A stretch of DNA of 28,819 bases from positions 1 through 28,819 of the IMG/VR virus record IMGVR_UViG_3300033571_016772, one strand, 5' to 3'. A program made the position numbers and the translations under genes. Position 1 is the first letter of the stretch. Each line of letters begins with the position of its first letter. The DNA comes from a virus. Below are positions 1,342 through 9,786 of this stretch, piece by piece. Below the pieces are notes generated by a model. The model did not search any database. It had not been told where the DNA came from and was given only the letters and a program-made list of their open reading frames with translations.

Positions 1342-3552
1342 CTACTCTTTATTGAAGCCGAAACGCAAACGGCAACGACAGTTAAATGTGAGAGCAGGTG
1401 GTGCTAAAGGGTCACCCGGAAAGCGCAAAACCGTACCGTCAACCAAGAATCCGTCACTAAAATCAACCGTATTGCCCTCTAATGTCTTATGAGTACTGCG
1501 AACGCGGGAATCTTTTCGTGTAATCCAAGTCTTCGTCAAGCCAACATTGTTTTCTTTACCAGCCAAGAACACTCCGCCGTTGTATGAAGCCTGAGCCTCA
1601 TGTTCAGCAATATCCCTGCGACGCTTGGAAAGAAGTTTGAGGAAGATTGCTATTAGCGCAAGACGCAGAAGAACAGAACGCTCTTCTTCGCTTTCTTCCA
1701 TCAACGCAACGGCTATAGCCGCTCCAATTTCTTCGGCGGTAGAAGCATTAGCCATTTGCATTCTCTCAACCTGCTGTTGGGCGAGTTTTTCAACTTCTTG
1801 TGGTTCCATGACCACATTGCTACTTGTTCTAGAAGCAACATATTCTTTAGCCTCTGTATAGATTGCCAAAATGATTGGTTCTAGGTCGTCGGCAAGTTGT
1901 TTGTTCCAAACCTCTTGGTCAAAAACCATATCTACGGTAAGAATTCCCGTGGATAGCGCTTTTAGTCCACGCTTGCCAAAAGCCTTCTCCATAACAACAC
2001 GCTGTTGTCTTTCAAACACACGCTCAAGAGCACGGTCAAGTATTTCAGTCCATCTGTCGGTATCTGCGTCTGCTTTAGTTTCAAGTTCCTGTACGAACTT
2101 CAACTGCATTTCTTGCTGAATCTTTTCAAACTCTGATAACTGTTGGTCAGGTGTCAGTGTTGCTGTTTCAGGAGCGACCCCTGCTTGAGTGTCAGGAATC
2201 TGTATCTCTGTTGGTGGCGCAGGAGGTGGAACCTGCATTGCGCCTTCCTGTGGAGGTAAGCCTTGAGGCATGGCATTCGGGTCAACACCAGCCATATCAA
2301 CAGGCTGTTGTTCTTCAGGCTTGAAAGCCTTCTCAGTGTTGGCAATAGGGGTGAGGTTCGGATTGGACAAAAGACTGTCTGCAAGTTCAGATTCAACCTT
2401 CTTGCGACCTGTGGCGGTTCTGTATTCGTTGAGACTGATAAGACCTTGTTGGAATTCGTCCATCACATAGCGTTCGCGTTCCTGCTTTGCAAGAATGAGA
2501 ATGGGAATGTCTTCCGTATCAAAATCAACATAATACTTTTCGTCAAGTTCATCAAATGCTCGCGCAAGAGTATGAAGATGAGGAGCCATTGTCTCCATCC
2601 AAAAGACACGCAACTCTTCTGACGCATTTGAGAATGTTCTTCCTGATGCGTTACCAATGACCGACTCAGGAACACCAAAAGCCGCAAAGATTTCGTTCTT
2701 TTGAAGTTCACGCATTTGGGTGTACGCGGCATCTCTTGGTGAAGCAGAAGTATCTATGTAGTCAACGCCATCTGATGAAGCAAGGACGGTTGTTGAGCCA
2801 GCACGAGAAAGGTTTCCACGGAATCGGTTCTTCAGTTCCTGCTTGTCATCGTCTTCCATGTCACCACGAACCACAAGTAGTCCACCCGGACGACCATCAT
2901 TGATGAGGTAGTTACGGTTATAGAGTTTAGACAAGTTCTCTAATTCAATTGCAATACCAGCGGATTCCATAGGAGTCATTGAGAGATACGGGTCTAATGG
3001 GTGTGGGCGTCGTATCCAACAAACATCTTCTGGCTTTAGGACAAACTTCGTTCCGTTGCGCATGTCAACTTCAAAGCCTTGAACAAATTTCTTGCTGTCA
3101 GGAATTGGTGCTGTGTACTGTGGCGGAAGAAGTTGCAACGCAATTATTTTTCCGTCTCGGGAGCGAACCTTTTCAATAAACACTCCTCGCGTGCTCATCA
3201 ACAATTGAGCAGAAATTCTGTATCTGAAAGCGAAAGAGTTTTCACCGTCGTTTGACTTTGAATTGAAAATCTCAAGTAGCGATTCGTTGTCTTTTGTTTG
3301 TTCTCCGCGCTGGTCGTTACCTTTTCGCAGAATGACAGGAAGTCGTGCTTGGTTTCCTGCAATTGCGTCTATGCAACGGAATACCCAAGTAACTTTTTGC
3401 ATACCTTCTCGGTATGCGCGGTCAATATCCCATCCATCTTTATATGGTTTACCAACTCGTCCCATGTCAAAAGCGACAGGAGCACCGGGGTTGGACATTG
3501 CTTTTTCAGCACTGTTTCTTAGATCTTTATTATTGTCGCTATTCCAAGCCAT
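1342..3552 (-). CDS. Portal protein fused to a MuF-like head morphogenesis domain
   Basis: The 736-residue product has two parts. Residues about 25-410 look like an HK97-family portal, the dodecameric ring at the capsid vertex through which DNA is packaged. Supporting motifs are the region around WVFRCIDAIAGNQARLP (56-72), LLPPQYTAPIPD (141-152), DPYLSMTPMESA (187-198), NDGRPGGLLV (218-227) and IFAAFGVPESVIG (288-300). A Pro/Gln-rich linker spans about 415-465. Residues about 475-736 are helical and end in a MuF-type signature: WITRKDSRVRSTHKTLEG, then LRFPGDPLAPP and NCRCRLRF at the C-terminus. MuF/SPP1 gp7-like proteins are minor head proteins often encoded just after the portal as separate genes; here the two are one chain. 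The start ATG overlaps the stop of the upstream membrane-protein gene (TAATG), which suggests translational coupling. Confidence 0.93.
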   Translation of the reverse strand: MAWNSDNNKDLRNSAEKAMSNPGAPVAFDMGRVGKPYKDGWDIDRAYREGMQKVTWVFRCIDAIAGNQARLPVILRKGNDQRGEQTKDNESLLEIFNSKSNDGENSFAFRYRISAQLLMSTRGVFIEKVRSRDGKIIALQLLPPQYTAPIPDSKKFVQGFEVDMRNGTKFVLKPEDVCWIRRPHPLDPYLSMTPMESAGIAIELENLSKLYNRNYLINDGRPGGLLVVRGDMEDDDKQELKNRFRGNLSRAGSTTVLASSDGVDYIDTSASPRDAAYTQMRELQKNEIFAAFGVPESVIGNASGRTFSNASEELRVFWMETMAPHLHTLARAFDELDEKYYVDFDTEDIPILILAKQERERYVMDEFQQGLISLNEYRTATGRKKVESELADSLLSNPNLTPIANTEKAFKPEEQQPVDMAGVDPNAMPQGLPPQEGAMQVPPPAPPTEIQIPDTQAGVAPETATLTPDQQLSEFEKIQQEMQLKFVQELETKADADTDRWTEILDRALERVFERQQRVVMEKAFGKRGLKALSTGILTVDMVFDQEVWNKQLADDLEPIILAIYTEAKEYVASRTSSNVVMEPQEVEKLAQQQVERMQMANASTAEEIGAAIAVALMEESEEERSVLLRLALIAIFLKLLSKRRRDIAEHEAQASYNGGVFLAGKENNVGLTKTWITRKDSRVRSTHKTLEGNTVDFSDGFLVDGTVLRFPGDPLAPPALTFNCRCRLRFGFNKE

Positions 3553-3728: not shown

Positions 3729-3802
3729 TGAGACCATCACCTTAGCAAATGAGAGACCTCTTTAATACTACATTATGTATGTACCGATATTTACGAGGAC
3801 TG
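3729..3802. promoter_or_regulatory. Divergent intergenic region between head block and terminase
   Basis: This gap of about 74 bases separates the minus-strand head genes from the plus-strand terminase. Both transcription units need a promoter here or further inside a neighbour. On the minus strand TAGTAT is -10-like; on the plus strand TATGTA is a weak -10 candidate. I see no convincing -35 on either strand. The plus-strand ribosome site GAGG (3795-3798) lies at the right end. Confidence 0.4.
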
Positions 3803-5107
3803 ATGGCTGACTGGGATAAAATTTATGATTACCTCCAACCGAAGGAGTCACTCTTCTGCCCTGAAGAGGCTTCTCTGACGCAGAAAGTTTTTTTGCGTAG
3901 TTACTCGCTTGAGGGTTTATTCGGTGGTGCCGCAGGTGGAGGCAAAAGCAGTGCGCTATTGATGGCGGCGTTGCAGTATGTGGATGTTCCAAACTATTCA
4001 GCGATTCTTTTCCGTCGCACCTATGCCGACCTTTCCCTGCCGGGTGCACTCATGGATCGTTTCCGCACTTGGGTGTCGGCGTATGATGATGTTCATTGGA
4101 ACGCCAACAGTTATGTCGCCACTTTCCCGTCAGGTGCAAGAGTTTCCTTTGGATATTTAAATAATACTAATGATTACTTACGTTATAAAGGTTCTGAATT
4201 TCAATTCATTGGAATGGATGAGGTAACCGAAATCCGTGAATCGGACTACAGGTACATGTTCTCCCGTTTGCGCCGTCCTGCGAGTGGACCTTTGTCCAAA
4301 GTCCCTTTGAGGATGCGTTCAGCCTCCAACCCTGCCCCTAATTGGGTTAGACAGCGATTTATTGTTGAAGGCAAAAATGAGCAGAGATTTTTTGTACCAT
4401 CATTTTTAACTGACAACCCCGGAATTGACGCAGAATCGTACCGTCAGGCGTTATCTGTTCTTGACCCTGTAGAGCGCAGAAGGCTTGAAATGGGCGACTG
4501 GTGGGCAACCACTCTTGGAACATTGTTTGATAGAACCGATTTCCCTATTATTGACGGTTCGGATGTTCCCGAAATCACAAGTAGCGCTAGGGCAGTCAGA
4601 TATTGGGACTTGGCGGCAACGGAGCCTCATTCAGGAAATACCGACCCTGACTGGACGGTAGGAACCTTGATGCTTTTTGACCAAGGAATCGCCTACATCA
4701 TGGATGTTCGTAAAATAAGAGCGAAATCAGACAAAGTTGAAGCATTTATCCATCAAACAGCCCAAGAGGACGGAAAAGGTGTAACTATCCGTATGGAGCA
4801 AGAGCCGGGCTCTTCAGGTAAGGCACTTATTGACCAATATGCACGATATGTAGTGCCGGGTTGGGATTTACAGGGTATCCGTTCATCTGGAGACAAGGAA
4901 ACAAGAGCGAGACCATTCGCAGCCGCTGTTGCTAACGGCAATGTTCGCTTAGTGAGAGGAAAATGGATTACCGATTGGTTGGACGAAGTCTCGTCCTTCC
5001 CAGAGGCTTGCACCCATGACGACCAAGTTGACTCTGCCGTCGGAGCCTTCACATTTTTGACTGGATTGGGGTTGCCTCAACGAAGGAAAGCCGTTATCAT
5101 CGTGTGA
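3803..5107 (+). CDS. terL: Terminase large subunit (packaging ATPase and nuclease)
   Basis: The protein powers DNA packaging into the prohead and cuts the concatemer. From the ATG at 3803 it has 434 residues, near the usual length. The N-terminal ATPase has a Walker A loop, GGAAGGGKSS (41-50), a helicase-like FRRTYADL (70-77) and a Walker B, FIGMDE (135-140), where Glu140 would be catalytic. The RNase H-like nuclease has its acidic residues in YWDLAAT (Asp269), MEQEPGSSGKA (Glu332) and HDDQVDS (405-411). The frame is open further upstream to 3749, but ACGAGG five bases before 3803 and the start MADWDKIYDYL favour 3803. No small terminase subunit is visible next to it. It heads the plus-strand block and lies back to back with the portal gene, whereas phages usually have terminase and portal on one strand. 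Confidence 0.96.
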   Translation: MADWDKIYDYLQPKESLFCPEEASLTQKVFLRSYSLEGLFGGAAGGGKSSALLMAALQYVDVPNYSAILFRRTYADLSLPGALMDRFRTWVSAYDDVHWNANSYVATFPSGARVSFGYLNNTNDYLRYKGSEFQFIGMDEVTEIRESDYRYMFSRLRRPASGPLSKVPLRMRSASNPAPNWVRQRFIVEGKNEQRFFVPSFLTDNPGIDAESYRQALSVLDPVERRRLEMGDWWATTLGTLFDRTDFPIIDGSDVPEITSSARAVRYWDLAATEPHSGNTDPDWTVGTLMLFDQGIAYIMDVRKIRAKSDKVEAFIHQTAQEDGKGVTIRMEQEPGSSGKALIDQYARYVVPGWDLQGIRSSGDKETRARPFAAAVANGNVRLVRGKWITDWLDEVSSFPEACTHDDQVDSAVGAFTFLTGLGLPQRRKAVIIV

Positions 5108-5633: not shown

Positions 5634-6325
5634 TGAACGATATTTACCAACAACTAACCGAACAATTTCCCCCCGAGATGGAGAAGCGCCTCAATAAAGG
5701 TGGTGCAAGTTTGGTCTATATCCCTATTAGTGAAGTTATTACTCGGATGAATAAAATCATCGGTGTAGAAAACTGGTCTTTCATTGTCAAAGGTTGGGAA
5801 CAGGTAGGAACATCAATCGTTGCTCATGTATCAGTAACAGCAACCATTTTGGGAAATACTGTCACTAGAGAAGGTGTCGGCGGGCAGAAAATCAAGTTGA
5901 CCAAACAGGGAGAGCCTGTTGACATTGGAGACGAAGTCAAGGGTGCCGTTTCAGACGCTTTGAAGAAAGCGGTTCAAACACTTGGTATCGGGTTGTATCT
6001 TGCACGGTCTTATGAAGCAATGGAAATTGAGCAGGTACTTGACGCACCAGTTGCCCTTCCTGCTCCTACCGTTTCTCCAAAGTACACACAGTTCAAGTCT
6101 CTACTTGAGGGAAATGACGAATACAAAGCAAAGATTAAAGATTTTTGGGGTCATTATGGTGGTGGACGACCAGTTCCAAAGCCATCAGAGTTCACAGAAG
6201 AAGAACTTGACATCTTGATTGCTGAAATTGTTTCGTACAGTTTCCCCGGCGCGACAGTCGTGGAAACACCTCCTGTCAAAAAGCAGAAGAGTACTGAAAT
6301 GCCTTCTCGCAGAGACCTTGACTAA
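5633..6325 (+). CDS. Rad52-family single-strand annealing protein
   Basis: The first 130 or so residues match the Rad52/22 annealing fold used by phages for recombination. Key segments are YIPISEVITRMNKIIGVENW (29-48), with the conserved aromatic and Asn positions, a beta region with VTATILGNTVTREGVGG (68-84), and GDEVKGAVSDALKKAVQTLG (99-118), the hallmark helix. Such proteins coat single-stranded DNA and anneal complementary strands during phage replication or repair. The C-terminal 100 residues are less conserved: a Pro-rich stretch (VALPAPTVSPKY), then an acidic region and a basic tail. The next gene is a nuclease of the type that makes single-stranded ends, so the two probably act as an exonuclease/annealase pair. 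A good ribosome site (AAAGGA) lies inside the preceding gene. Confidence 0.9.
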   Translation: MNDIYQQLTEQFPPEMEKRLNKGGASLVYIPISEVITRMNKIIGVENWSFIVKGWEQVGTSIVAHVSVTATILGNTVTREGVGGQKIKLTKQGEPVDIGDEVKGAVSDALKKAVQTLGIGLYLARSYEAMEIEQVLDAPVALPAPTVSPKYTQFKSLLEGNDEYKAKIKDFWGHYGGGRPVPKPSEFTEEELDILIAEIVSYSFPGATVVETPPVKKQKSTEMPSRRDLD

Positions 6326-7094
6326 TTTGCTTACCGCTCCCGAATATCTTTCACCAAGTTCCATAGGCACATTTCATCAATGTCCGTTGAAGTACAAACT
6401 TTCCCGAATTGATGGAATCAAGGAACCGCCAACAGAACACACGCTTCTAGGTAATTATGTTCACTCCATCCTTGAGGAATTTTATCGCCTTGACGCAAGT
6501 GAGCGAAATGTTCTGAGCGCAAGAACACTTTTCAGAAACATATGGGAAGATTACGCCCAAGATGTTGTGGATATCTACCACGGTAAAACAGAAAGCATTT
6601 CTCAGTTTAGGTTGCGTGCGCGTTACTGCGTAGAGAACCTTATGGGTATGGAATCATCGCAGACCATTGAATTTGATGGAATTGAAACCGAACTCAATCA
6701 TGCTGTAAGCGGTGTGAAGATAAAAGGATTTATTGATAGGTGGGCTGTTGCTGACGGCAAGATAAACATTGGCGATTACAAGACTGGCAAGGTTCCTCAG
6801 CCACGATTCCGTGACGACAAATTTGACCAACTCTTAATTTATGCGATTATTTTGTCAGAGATAGAAGACAAAGATATTGGGACATTGGAATTGCTGTACA
6901 TCAAAGATAGCGTTAAATTGACCAAAAACCCGACAAAAGAAGATGTCACAAGAATAACTAACATGTTAGTTGAGACAAGAAATGCCATAGATGCAAGATG
7001 TGAAACCGAGGTCTTTGAAACTAAGGTCGGAGTCTTGTGTGGATGGTGCCACTATAAACCTATATGCCCTGCATGGAGTAAGAAGAACAAATGA
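6318..7094 (+). CDS. Cas4/RecB-like PD-(D/E)XK exonuclease with Fe-S cluster cysteines
   Basis: From the TTG at 6318 the product has 258 residues. It has the PD-(D/E)XK nuclease pattern of the RecB/AddB/Cas4 group: GNYVHSILEEFY with His49, GFIDRW with Asp140, GDYKTGK with Asp153 and Lys155, and QLLIYA with Gln171 and Tyr175. One N-terminal cysteine in FHQCPLKY (Cys22) and three at the C-terminus, CGWCHYKPIC (Cys241, 244, 250), match the four-cysteine 4Fe-4S arrangement of Cas4 and AddB. The likely role is resecting DNA ends for the Rad52-like annealase upstream. The start is uncertain: no ATG lies in the right place, TTG codons at 6318 and 6327 are the best options, and the frame is open to a TTG at 6219. 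It overlaps the stop of the previous gene by 8 bases. Confidence 0.88.
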   Translation: MTNLLTAPEYLSPSSIGTFHQCPLKYKLSRIDGIKEPPTEHTLLGNYVHSILEEFYRLDASERNVLSARTLFRNIWEDYAQDVVDIYHGKTESISQFRLRARYCVENLMGMESSQTIEFDGIETELNHAVSGVKIKGFIDRWAVADGKINIGDYKTGKVPQPRFRDDKFDQLLIYAIILSEIEDKDIGTLELLYIKDSVKLTKNPTKEDVTRITNMLVETRNAIDARCETEVFETKVGVLCGWCHYKPICPAWSKKNK

Positions 7095-7609
7095 ACGACG
7101 AATCATTCGCACGCCTAGTTGCTGACGATGTAAAAAATAAATCAACCGAAGCCCAAAAAAAATATCTTCAGTTGCCTGAAAACATCACAAGATGGAGAAG
7201 GGCTCTTGAGTACCTAGATTCAAATCTTCAGGAACAGATAAAACAAATTAATTCCTACGAGACATTAAAACTCAAAGAATTTGAACATTTGGGTGAAGAA
7301 GGAACCGCCCTAATTGCTGAAACATCAGCCAATTTCACTGCTCGTAGGTCAAAAATTGAACGATTTGATTTTTTTGTCAAAGCGAAACTTGATGAAGTAT
7401 CAAGATTAAACGCTTTGTCCCCTAGCGATGGTTCTTCGCAAAATGCAGAAGACTTTTACCGTAGGGCTATCCGCAAATGGTGGTCACTCATGGAAGACTT
7501 CGAAATGGAAACTACCCGCATTGACGAGGCTCTCTACGCAACGCTTGACGGCAGGTGGGAATTTGAAGGATTGACCCAAGATAATGTCTTCGGTGATTTT
7601 GAAGATTAA
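7091..7609 (+). CDS. Unknown helical (coiled-coil-like) protein
   Basis: The ATG overlaps the nuclease stop as ATGA, so the two genes are translationally coupled. The 172-residue product is rich in charged residues and long helices, for example from ITRWRRALEYLDSNLQEQ through EFEHLGEEGTALIAE to ARRSKIERFDFFVKAKLDEV, which looks coiled-coil-like. It ends in an acidic tail (DNVFGDFED). An acidic, aromatic-ended tail is seen in single-stranded DNA-binding proteins, but there is no OB-fold signature, so I do not claim that. I do not recognise a family; its location suggests a partner of the nuclease/annealase pair. Confidence 0.8.
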   Translation: MNDESFARLVADDVKNKSTEAQKKYLQLPENITRWRRALEYLDSNLQEQIKQINSYETLKLKEFEHLGEEGTALIAETSANFTARRSKIERFDFFVKAKLDEVSRLNALSPSDGSSQNAEDFYRRAIRKWWSLMEDFEMETTRIDEALYATLDGRWEFEGLTQDNVFGDFED

Positions 7610-7617
7610 GTAGAATA

Positions 7618-8751
7618 GTGACTAGGCAAAGACTATTTCTTGACATTTCTTGTGTTGACGCCGCTCGTGAACGGTTGCGTCATGTATACGACACCTTTGA
7701 CACTGTTTGCTACCAATTTTCTGGTGGTAAAGACAGTACAGCGATTATCTACCTTGCAAAAGAAATCCACGAAGAGCGAAACCTCGGAAAAGTAAAAGTT
7801 ATTTTTCGTGACGAAGAAATGGTTAGCCCTACGGTTGTGTCTTTTGTTGAAAAAGTCAGGAATTACGATTGGGTTGACATGGAATGGTACTGCCTTCCAT
7901 CAGGTCAAGAAATATGGGTTCTTGGTCGGCGTGAGTATGTTTTGCTTTGGTCTCCACAAAGAAAGGCTGAAGGTCGTTTAGTTCGTGAAATGCCCGAGTG
8001 GGCTATCAAGGCAGAACACTTTGGTTTAGACCCGTCAAAACCCTGTCCTAATCTTGTTGACTACTACACGATGCAGGGCAAGAAGGGCAGAACCGCATTC
8101 GTTATGGGTGTCCGTGCCAACGAGTCAATGGTCAGGTACAGGTCGTGCGTACAGAAACTTCATGAAAACTACATTGTTTCACCTTTTCTTTTACAGAAAT
8201 CAATACCTCTTAAATTTGCCAAAGTCATTTACGACTGGACAACCGAAGATGTCATGAAGTTTATTATTGATGAACATAAGGCTGAATATTGCGAATATTA
8301 TGATTTGGCAGAATTGACAGGTAGCAACAGTCGTGTTGGAATTCCTTTACATTCTGTTGCAATTAGACGCATTGGCGATGTTGTTGCTACTGAGCCAGAG
8401 TTTTACGACCAGTTGGTTCGCTGTTTTCCTCAAATAGATGCTCAACGGAGATATTGGGCTGACTTTGATATTGAGAGTTTGATTCTAAACTATTCGTCTA
8501 TGGGTTGGGATGGTGTGTCTCAATGTATTGATGACCACATGCTGACTCCCGGAATGCGATTGGATGCATTGAAGTTCGCTTCTGCTTTCAGGAAAAAAAG
8601 AGTTGTAGACCCATACGGTTTCCCTCTTGAATACTTGATTAGGACACTGCTACTGAACGAGTTTCATCAGTCAACACCAACTCCCGTCGGACCGAAAACA
8701 AGAGCACACACGATGCGCTTGAAGGCGATAGAGGCTGGCGAAGATTACTAA
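7618..8751 (+). CDS. PP-loop ATPase of the PAPS-reductase/IbrA-like family
   Basis: The 377-residue protein has the N-type ATP pyrophosphatase loop SGGKDSTAI starting at residue 35, the defining motif of PAPS reductases, DndC and IbrA. Later motifs are GVRANESMVRYRSC and IYDWTTEDVMKF, both typical of this superfamily. The redox motif ECGxH of true PAPS reductases is absent, so sulfate reduction is unlikely. The domain order, the length and the ParB-like gene 14 bases downstream are the pattern of IbrA/IbrB, known from Escherichia coli as regulators of prophage-encoded immunoglobulin-binding proteins. The real biochemical reaction is not known to me; adenylation-type chemistry on a nucleotide or nucleic acid is an inference from the fold. 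The GTG start follows the previous stop by eight bases with no clear ribosome site. It is not part of the structural gene programme. Confidence 0.88.
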   Translation: MTRQRLFLDISCVDAARERLRHVYDTFDTVCYQFSGGKDSTAIIYLAKEIHEERNLGKVKVIFRDEEMVSPTVVSFVEKVRNYDWVDMEWYCLPSGQEIWVLGRREYVLLWSPQRKAEGRLVREMPEWAIKAEHFGLDPSKPCPNLVDYYTMQGKKGRTAFVMGVRANESMVRYRSCVQKLHENYIVSPFLLQKSIPLKFAKVIYDWTTEDVMKFIIDEHKAEYCEYYDLAELTGSNSRVGIPLHSVAIRRIGDVVATEPEFYDQLVRCFPQIDAQRRYWADFDIESLILNYSSMGWDGVSQCIDDHMLTPGMRLDALKFASAFRKKRVVDPYGFPLEYLIRTLLLNEFHQSTPTPVGPKTRAHTMRLKAIEAGEDY

Positions 8752-8765
8752 CATGAGGAGAATTT

Positions 8766-9314
8766 ATGGAATTAACTGAGGTTAAAAATAAAGTCTTGAA
8801 AATCCCCAAGTGGGGTTCTACAAGCATTTTAAGACCAGAGAAAATGCTTCTTAAACTTTCTCTAATTGAACATGGTTGGCTACAACCACTAGTTGTCAGG
8901 CTCTCAGATAAAACAATTATTGACGGCTATCAGAGATATCTGATATCCATAGATGACGAGAAGTTTTTAAAAAAGTATGGTGACAAGATTCCTGTCATTT
9001 ATCAGGATGTTGACGAAATTGAAGCAATGGTGATGCATGTTCGCTTAAATAGGGCGCGTGGTTCTGTTAATTCATACGGTCTAAGTAAATTAGTTAAAAG
9101 AATTGTTGCATCAGGCAGGTACGAAGAAGATGATTTGGGAAACCTATTCTTAATGCATGATGACGAAGTTGATTTGCTTATGTCGGATGGTCTTTTGAAG
9201 AAGAAAAACTGGCAGAAATACGAATATTCTCGTGCTTGGGTTCCGATTGAGGTGCCAAAACCTGTTGTTGAGGACACTGTTCTGATTGAACGCCCTCCAA
9301 ACGCTGACCGTTAG
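8766..9314 (+). CDS. ParB/sulfiredoxin-fold protein, IbrB-like partner
   Basis: The 182-residue product has the ParB-like N-terminal domain at about residues 20-100: LRPEKMLLK, then HGWLQPLVVR, IIDGYQRYLI (in place of the usual DGxxR box), IPVIYQDVDEIEAM and a closing LNRARG. ParB-domain proteins of this size bind nucleotides and often DNA. The second half is helical (YGLSKLVKRIVASGRYEEDDL) and may bind DNA or the PP-loop partner. It starts at an ATG behind a strong GAGGAG site, 14 bases after the PP-loop gene, so the two form one unit. The pairing mirrors IbrB with IbrA. No plasmid-type ParA or centromere repeats are present, so a partition role is unlikely. Confidence 0.85.
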   Translation: MELTEVKNKVLKIPKWGSTSILRPEKMLLKLSLIEHGWLQPLVVRLSDKTIIDGYQRYLISIDDEKFLKKYGDKIPVIYQDVDEIEAMVMHVRLNRARGSVNSYGLSKLVKRIVASGRYEEDDLGNLFLMHDDEVDLLMSDGLLKKKNWQKYEYSRAWVPIEVPKPVVEDTVLIERPPNADR

Positions 9315-9372: not shown

Positions 9373-9786
9373 ATGCCACGACCAAGAAGCACTGAAGATG
9401 TTGAGTTCCGCACAGATGTGGATACTGCTGGCAATGTTGTTCGACGTGCCCGTTTTGTTCGCCGTCCTCGCCGACAAGGTGGTCGGAATGTTCCGGGAAA
9501 TGCTCGCTATTATCGCCGTCGTCAGGCTGAACTTAACGCCGCTAGACGGCAACGCCGTGGCGCTGTAGCAGGAGCGGGTAACGCAGCCCGTCGTGGACGA
9601 GCCGCGGAACGAACAGCAAGGGGTGCAGGTCGTGCGGGTCGTAATGCAGGCAATCCTCGTACAGTAACCCCTCGTGGTACTGGTGGAAATGCTCGTCGTC
9701 GTGGTGGTGTTCGTGGCGCTCTTGCCCGTGCCGCTAGAGGTCTTGCTAACAGGCTTGAAAGAAATCGTACTCGTCGTAGCCGATAA
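9373..9786 (+). CDS. Arginine-rich, lysine-free basic protein (protamine-like)
   Basis: The 137-residue product is extreme in composition: by my count about 40 arginines and no lysine, with most of the rest Ala, Gly and Asn. After a short acidic start (STEDVEFRTDVD) it is a nearly unbroken low-complexity basic chain, for example VRRARFVRRPRRQGGR and GNARYYRRRQAE. It has no cysteine, no obvious fold and no membrane segment. A good ribosome site (AGGAG) precedes the ATG, and the next gene follows after 13 bases behind GGAGG. It lies just before the head-tail connector genes, so binding and neutralising packaged DNA, or a head-internal role, is a reasonable guess. A nucleolar-like RNA-binding or scaffold role is also possible. 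The family is not recognised. Confidence 0.82.
   Translation: MPRPRSTEDVEFRTDVDTAGNVVRRARFVRRPRRQGGRNVPGNARYYRRRQAELNAARRQRRGAVAGAGNAARRGRAAERTARGAGRAGRNAGNPRTVTPRGTGGNARRRGGVRGALARAARGLANRLERNRTRRSR

Follow-up and report, generated by a model that had tools for sequence, protein, structure and literature searches.

A phage gene pair encoding an IbrA-like PP-loop ATPase and a ParB-fold protein, with a tailoring-gene slot in its relatives and a candidate role in nucleic-acid modification

Two adjacent genes, here called A and B, were analysed on a viral DNA stretch of 28,819 nucleotides (IMG/VR record IMGVR_UViG_3300033571_016772, positions 1 to 28,819), referred to below at its full length as the window. 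Gene A is an intact open reading frame (ORF) of 377 amino acids with a GTG start (7618-8751, plus strand), and gene B is an intact ORF of 182 amino acids with an ATG start (8766-9314, plus strand). The 14 bp spacer between them (8752-8765, plus strand) contains GAGGAG, which resembles a ribosome-binding site; in relatives the same site is occupied by tailoring or nuclease-like ORFs. According to PHROGs and Pfam, a Rad52-type annealing protein and a PD-(D/E)XK exonuclease are encoded 5' of the pair, and neck, tail sheath, tail tube, chaperone and baseplate genes follow 3' of it. A preceding sequence-only reading had placed here, between recombination and structural genes, an ATPase resembling 3'-phosphoadenosine-5'-phosphosulfate (PAPS) reductase, with SGGKDS and without ECGxH, followed after 14 bases by a ParB-domain protein in the fixed order of IbrA and IbrB. 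This description was borne out.

Protein A matches Pfam PAPS_reduct (1.6e-9) and, over nearly its full length, phrog_2302 (1.5e-75). The AlphaFold2 model is confident, with a predicted local distance difference test score (pLDDT) of 90.7 and a predicted template modelling score (pTM) of 0.86, and has an extra helical region at the C-terminus. Its best match in the PDB is the PAPS reductase CysH (6vpu, E 2.5e-7, TM score 0.63 on target length), and after the CysH reductases it matches FAD synthase, CysD, TilS and NcsA. A PDB sequence match to PstS (0.002) was rejected as spurious, since the predicted fold differs.

The PP-loop motif SGGKDS (residues 35-40; 7720-7737, plus strand, as for all motifs of A and B) is invariant in 90 relatives of A, as are DWxxxD and the residues D65 and E67 of an acidic triad, D65-E66-E67 (7810-7818), in which E66 is nearly so. 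The invariant positions of GxRxxESxxR (residues 164-173; 8107-8136) are also found in E. coli YbdN. A further motif conserved in relatives, YCxxYD (8287-8304), includes Cys225, the sole strongly conserved cysteine of A (96%). There is no ECG in the A protein of the window, and no CxxC in it or in the 90 relatives. The degree of conservation of A is close to that of the large terminase subunit, with identities of 96/94, 91/90 and 73/81% in the three bins compared. A is a PP-loop enzyme of the ATP-binding type, and it is strongly constrained.

Protein B is a ParB/Srx-fold protein of the IbrB/YbdM type, assigned to phrog_2159 (ParB-like, 1.2e-26), while the Pfam ParB_N match is weak (1.8e-3) and under the cut-off. 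Its AlphaFold2 model (pLDDT 86.7, pTM 0.75) has a low-confidence tail and matches Noc, ParB and KorB in the PDB (E 2e-7 to 6e-6). Among 81 relatives, D53, G54 and R57 are invariant in DGYQR (DGxxR, residues 53-57; 8922-8936), a predicted nucleoside triphosphate (NTP)-binding motif; in DndI, the arginine of DGQQR is required for ATP hydrolysis (PMC11662687). N95 is invariant, and R96 and G99 nearly so, in the ParB-fold box NRARG (NRxxG, residues 95-99; 9048-9062) in the same relatives. The C-terminal motif YSRAW (residues 154-158; 9225-9239), with invariant Y154 and W158, is common to B and E. coli YbdM. The possibility that B is an unusually fast-evolving specificity subunit was rejected, as its rate is similar to that of the adjacent genes for Rad52 and the exonuclease; what is unusual is the slowness of A, and B evolves like its average neighbours.

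From database names alone the pair could be taken for an ordinary auxiliary metabolic PAPS reductase of sulfate assimilation together with a plasmid-type partition protein. The folds do match CysH and ParB, and virome papers interpret PAPS-reductase homologues as sulfate-assimilation genes. However, A has the CysH fold without its catalytic motif ECGxH, and B is a short, weak ParB: it scores 20.6 against a cut-off of 58.45 bits in the test for canonical ParB (TIGR00180, parB_part), and with 182 amino acids and its low-confidence tail it does not correspond to a ParB of ParABS partition with a C-terminal dimerisation domain. The genes of the window that were named by PHROGs and Pfam include no ParA. 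This explanation, which would also leave the pairing with tailoring enzymes unexplained, was already disfavoured and is extremely improbable. Neither membership of these ordinary families nor a lack of pairing in relatives, which would have spoken against the sequence-only reading, was observed.

Both proteins are homologous to the E. coli K-12 pair YbdN/YbdM, A to YbdN with 25% identity over 262 amino acids (BLASTP 8e-14) and B to YbdM with 29% over 158 (BLASTP 2e-16). The gene order is also the same in IbrA/IbrB and YbdN/YbdM, a PAPS_reduct gene followed on the same strand by a ParB-fold gene. A shares SGGKDS, GxRxxESxxR and DW with YbdN and IbrA, and it aligns to the profile of DUF3440-type IbrA with 100% probability over 301 columns, the alignment ending at residue 311. 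IbrA and YbdN continue with a C-terminal segment carrying two conserved cysteines, whereas A lacks it; DUF3440 (PF11922) has no match in the A of the window at E up to 1, compared with 1e-80 for the IbrA of Fusobacterium phage phiFN37. The IbrA family also has YNxLYD where A has YCxxYD, with Asn in place of Cys225 in the DUF3440-type proteins. Because the C-terminal DUF3440 segment is absent, we class A, on these alignments, as a phage subfamily of the IbrA superfamily, IbrA-like rather than IbrA. In phiFN37, a ParB gene lies beside a queuine tRNA-ribosyltransferase (TGT) gene, a few kb from IbrA/IbrB (L092 1-849 and 3808-5596).

IbrA/IbrB have been named in phages with no function demonstrated (PMC4490671, PMC4541368), and the ybdNM operon of enterobacteria is a chromosomal pair regulated by CitR, which in E. 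coli represses it (PMC9068703); deletion of citR raises ybdNM expression. In the literature searched we found no wet-lab evidence on members of the subfamily of A. The pair itself is known and annotated in phages of Mycobacterium, Arthrobacter, Bacillus, Rhizobium and others. Pairs of phrog_2302 and phrog_2159 are found in Mycobacterium Pipefishvirus (gp4-gp5), Arthrobacter Laroyevirus (gp6-gp7) and Bacillus phage 031MP004. These annotated phages share the subfamily of A (~33-36% identity) and the pairing, and in actinophages the pair is beside or near the terminase. They have a second, upstream ParB. Those of Arthrobacter, Bacillus and M. abscessus additionally encode a methyltransferase, of the same cluster in each, next to the pair. 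The 28.8 kb of the window contain neither the second ParB nor this methyltransferase.

The collection scans were not exhaustive, and the counts of viral and bacterial loci that follow are therefore counts among the matches listed. B lies 3' of A on the same strand in 188 of the 211 viral loci with room for it, a number that includes repeated contigs, and in 78/79 bacterial loci, which were picked by similarity to A and include some duplicate contigs. After reduction to representatives at 95% identity, B is downstream of A in 86 of the 101 phage loci. The same holds for 15 of 17 phage lineages; in the other two B is upstream (L191) or the contig ends at A (L114). In most lineages the ORFs of A and B overlap or nearly overlap, and no A-B fusion protein was found. 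In a comparison with 84,980 bacterial and archaeal species, the closest relatives of A are almost all phage genes: the matches to the subfamily consist of one complete (43%) and one partial (67%) bacterial sequence, after which identity falls to ~30%.

Additionally, 77 further loci of the closest terminases were inspected. A lies within 4.5 kb in 41 of them, 23 end too soon, and 13 have no A there. In all 13 of these (13/13), B is kept at the same site beside the terminase, and in 2 of them A is found elsewhere on the contig. Three of the contigs that reach at least 50 kb have an unlinked A, and each of the three carries B as well, roughly 35-70 kb away. This means that A and B are retained together even where they are not adjacent. 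Their pairing, which hundreds of unrelated phages maintain, is far beyond chance and the co-occurrence is obligate.

The point that is new here is that tailoring genes recurrently collect at the site between A and B. The genes in the loci were called by a simple longest-ORF script, so that the record of exact ORF starts and of the genes in the slot may have gaps. Across relatives the slot holds a GNAT acetyltransferase (Pfam scores up to 2e-9), an S-adenosylmethionine-dependent methyltransferase, two kinds of 2-oxoglutarate (2OG)-Fe(II) dioxygenase, with scores of 1e-11 to 1e-12 for the TauD kind, and an HNH-like zinc protein. Distant lineages show the arrangement ParB1, A, GNAT, HNH-like zinc protein, methyltransferase or TauD dioxygenase, B and terminase; different lineages carry different subsets of the slot genes, and the order is sometimes changed. 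A GNAT gene adjoins the A-B pair in some bacterial loci as well. Within the lineage of the window itself, one relative has a 2OG-Fe(II) oxygenase (PF13640, 1.4e-11) between A and B (L196 1340-1948).

In several loci with near-identical A from close relatives within this lineage, an ORF of 167 amino acids with PD-(D/E)XK-like spacing (D...ExK) is located exactly between A and B (L012, L015 and L019, each at 6135-6638; L024 4780-5283; L037 5191-5694). It has no Pfam or PHROG match. In other relatives the A-B spacers of 34-56 bp resemble the first and last bases of this ORF, which suggests that it has repeatedly been lost by internal deletion. A counter-defence or host-exclusion module might be proposed from this, in which B or the slot ORF is a nuclease, so that the DNA of the host or of rivals would be cut while that of the phage carries a mark; the D...ExK ORF in close relatives, its loss scars in others and the HNH-like proteins in the slot of other lineages would agree with such a module. 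We regard it as very improbable, as the ORF lacks a family match and is not in the window, and its repeated loss fits a dispensable or selfish element.

The slot also bears on whether the pair is regulatory, co-activating phage or host gene expression as proposed for IbrA/IbrB of E. coli, which annotations describe as co-activators of the expression of prophage genes (PMC4490671, PMC4541368). Tailoring enzymes between the two genes are not expected of a regulator, and that A has a conserved ATP-pyrophosphatase motif and evolves slowly implies a catalytic role; a modification might alter transcription secondarily. A primarily regulatory role is therefore improbable. Of the functions that the sequence-only reading had left side by side (a nucleic-acid or nucleotide modification, a regulatory role, or host takeover or anti-defence), nucleic-acid modification is now favoured because tailoring genes occur in the slot of relatives.

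We give roughly even chances to the proposal that A adenylates a substrate and that the two proteins jointly place a modification on a nucleic acid, the DNA of the phage itself being the most likely target. Directly supported here are the folds, the conserved motifs, the obligate pairing and the tailoring-gene slot, and from these we infer the adenylation, the amine or sulfur transfer, the elaboration by slot enzymes and DNA as the target. ATP would be bound in the PP-loop of A, and the substrate would be adenylated with release of pyrophosphate. An amine or sulfur donor would then attack the activated group, and an amide- or thio-type modification would result, with no reduction of the kind that CysH performs. 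B, as an NTP-binding ParB-fold protein, would be the switch, clamp or specificity partner of A, possibly helped in many phages by the second ParB protein. In other phages an acetyltransferase, methyltransferase or 2OG-Fe(II) dioxygenase from the A-B slot would elaborate the product, and the phage of the window would have the minimal form of the A-B unit. The benefit would be that phage DNA is shielded from host nucleases.

Two systems are precedents, CmoY with nearby ParBc proteins and DndC with DndB. In the CmoA/CmoX hypermodification of phage DNA, the AMP-forming, asparagine-synthetase-like ligase CmoY acts on cytosine in DNA, and many of the contigs encode a ParBc protein with no assigned role (PMC12783734). 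This ligase is likewise an AMP-forming PP-loop enzyme, although of the asparagine-synthetase type, while A belongs to the PAPS-reductase branch, and a C5 DNA methylase (PF00145) is present in only 3/12 long relatives. In phosphorothioation, the PAPS-reductase-type DndC acts with DndB, a member of the ParB family (PMC10853773). The DndC, SspD and BrxP profiles gave weak matches, the DndC score being 25 and thereby far under the cut-off of 290 bits. No partner ATPase, DndE or SspB was among the main window genes named by PHROGs and Pfam, the window being fragmentary and no dedicated search having been made. A link to Dpd 7-deazaguanine modification was rejected: a homologue of TGT (DpdA) is present in 0/15 distant-lineage contigs, the window itself not being searched for it.

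Several observations weigh against nucleic-acid modification by the pair. A has no DndC-type cysteine dyad, and CxxC, which would serve an Fe-S cluster, is missing from it and from the 90 relatives. The slot of the window is empty, and a search of the window found no GNAT, HNH-like protein, methyltransferase, TauD or other dioxygenase. The helix-turn-helix-like C-terminal region of B has no net positive charge, and on this basis DNA binding by B is not evident. Thymine hypermodification was rejected as a variant, a thymidylate synthase homologue being found in 0/12 long relatives. Furthermore, the CitR-regulated chromosomal ybdNM does not obviously fit DNA protection, and the tailoring genes could equally serve RNA or a small molecule.

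Most modifying PP-loop enzymes with known function target tRNA, and tailoring by GNAT, methyltransferase and dioxygenase enzymes occurs on RNA too. The pair could accordingly modify tRNA, mRNA or another host macromolecule during takeover, in the manner of TilS and NcsA on tRNA, to which Foldseek also matches A (1e-4 to 1e-3). We consider this unlikely: the Pfam scan found no known tRNA-binding domain in A, and DNA is the target indicated by the ParB partners and by the DNA methyltransferases in the vicinity. The second ParB, of ~250-290 amino acids, is usual in long relatives, and in four of these from the lineage of the window (G001, G002, G003 and G005) an N6/N4 DNA methyltransferase is encoded a few kb from it.

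Alternatively, the pair could produce or use up a small molecule or a modified nucleotide acting as signal, antidote or precursor, with B, for example, as a SerK-like kinase. The fold of A is common to CysD and FAD synthase, and the ParB fold, which binds ATP, GTP or CTP, includes the metabolic enzymes SerK and Srx (PMC12704722). In some genomes tens of kb lie between A and B, as diffusible intermediates would allow. The conserved juxtaposition of the two genes, with ORFs overlapping or nearly so in most lineages, instead suggests co-translation or a complex, and the explanation is unlikely.

Judged from its genes, the window is a fragment of a contractile-tailed phage. Related contigs reach 100-150 kb and encode WhiB-type regulators, which suggests an actinobacterial host; the virus is probably one of freshwater actinobacteria. 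The large terminase subunit (3749-5107, plus strand) is a landmark of the locus, as B, and usually both A and B, sits beside it in relatives. It is divergent from the portal gene (1342-3552, minus strand), whose product has a C-terminal Mu F-like domain. Immediately upstream, A is adjoined by an ORF of 172 amino acids with no assigned function (7091-7609, plus strand), which is kept in relatives of the same lineage. 3' of B, an extremely arginine-rich ORF of 137 amino acids without a family match (9373-9786) is kept in close relatives.

Other neighbours were noted at related loci. A second, different SGGKDS protein is encoded near the pair at L176 3433-4173. SNF2-type helicases are found near the unlinked A (L120 6710-8692, HARP-like; L145 6719-8674) and, in Streptococcus, Lactobacillus and Flavobacterium phages, a short way 5' of IbrA-type genes (L088 3133-4371; L090 3921-5090; L089 5961-7160). 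A homologue of pyrimidine dimer DNA glycosylase (PF03013) is located just 5' of the unlinked A at L120 4386-4805.

With somewhat less confidence than an even chance, the nucleic-acid modification proposed above may be extended to a widespread pathway of phage DNA hypermodification. In such a pathway a minimal PP-loop ATPase and ParB writer would have the A-B slot as its plug-in site, where acetyltransferase, methyltransferase, dioxygenase and nuclease genes would lead to decorations of phage DNA that differ between lineages. In viromes, PAPS-reductase genes are as a matter of routine assigned to sulfur metabolism; if the pair does write a DNA modification, hundreds of phage contigs have been misread. 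E. coli ybdNM, a long-standing puzzle, would then become testable, and the tailoring slot directly predicts which modified nucleosides to seek in those phages of M. smegmatis, Arthrobacter and B. subtilis that can be cultured.
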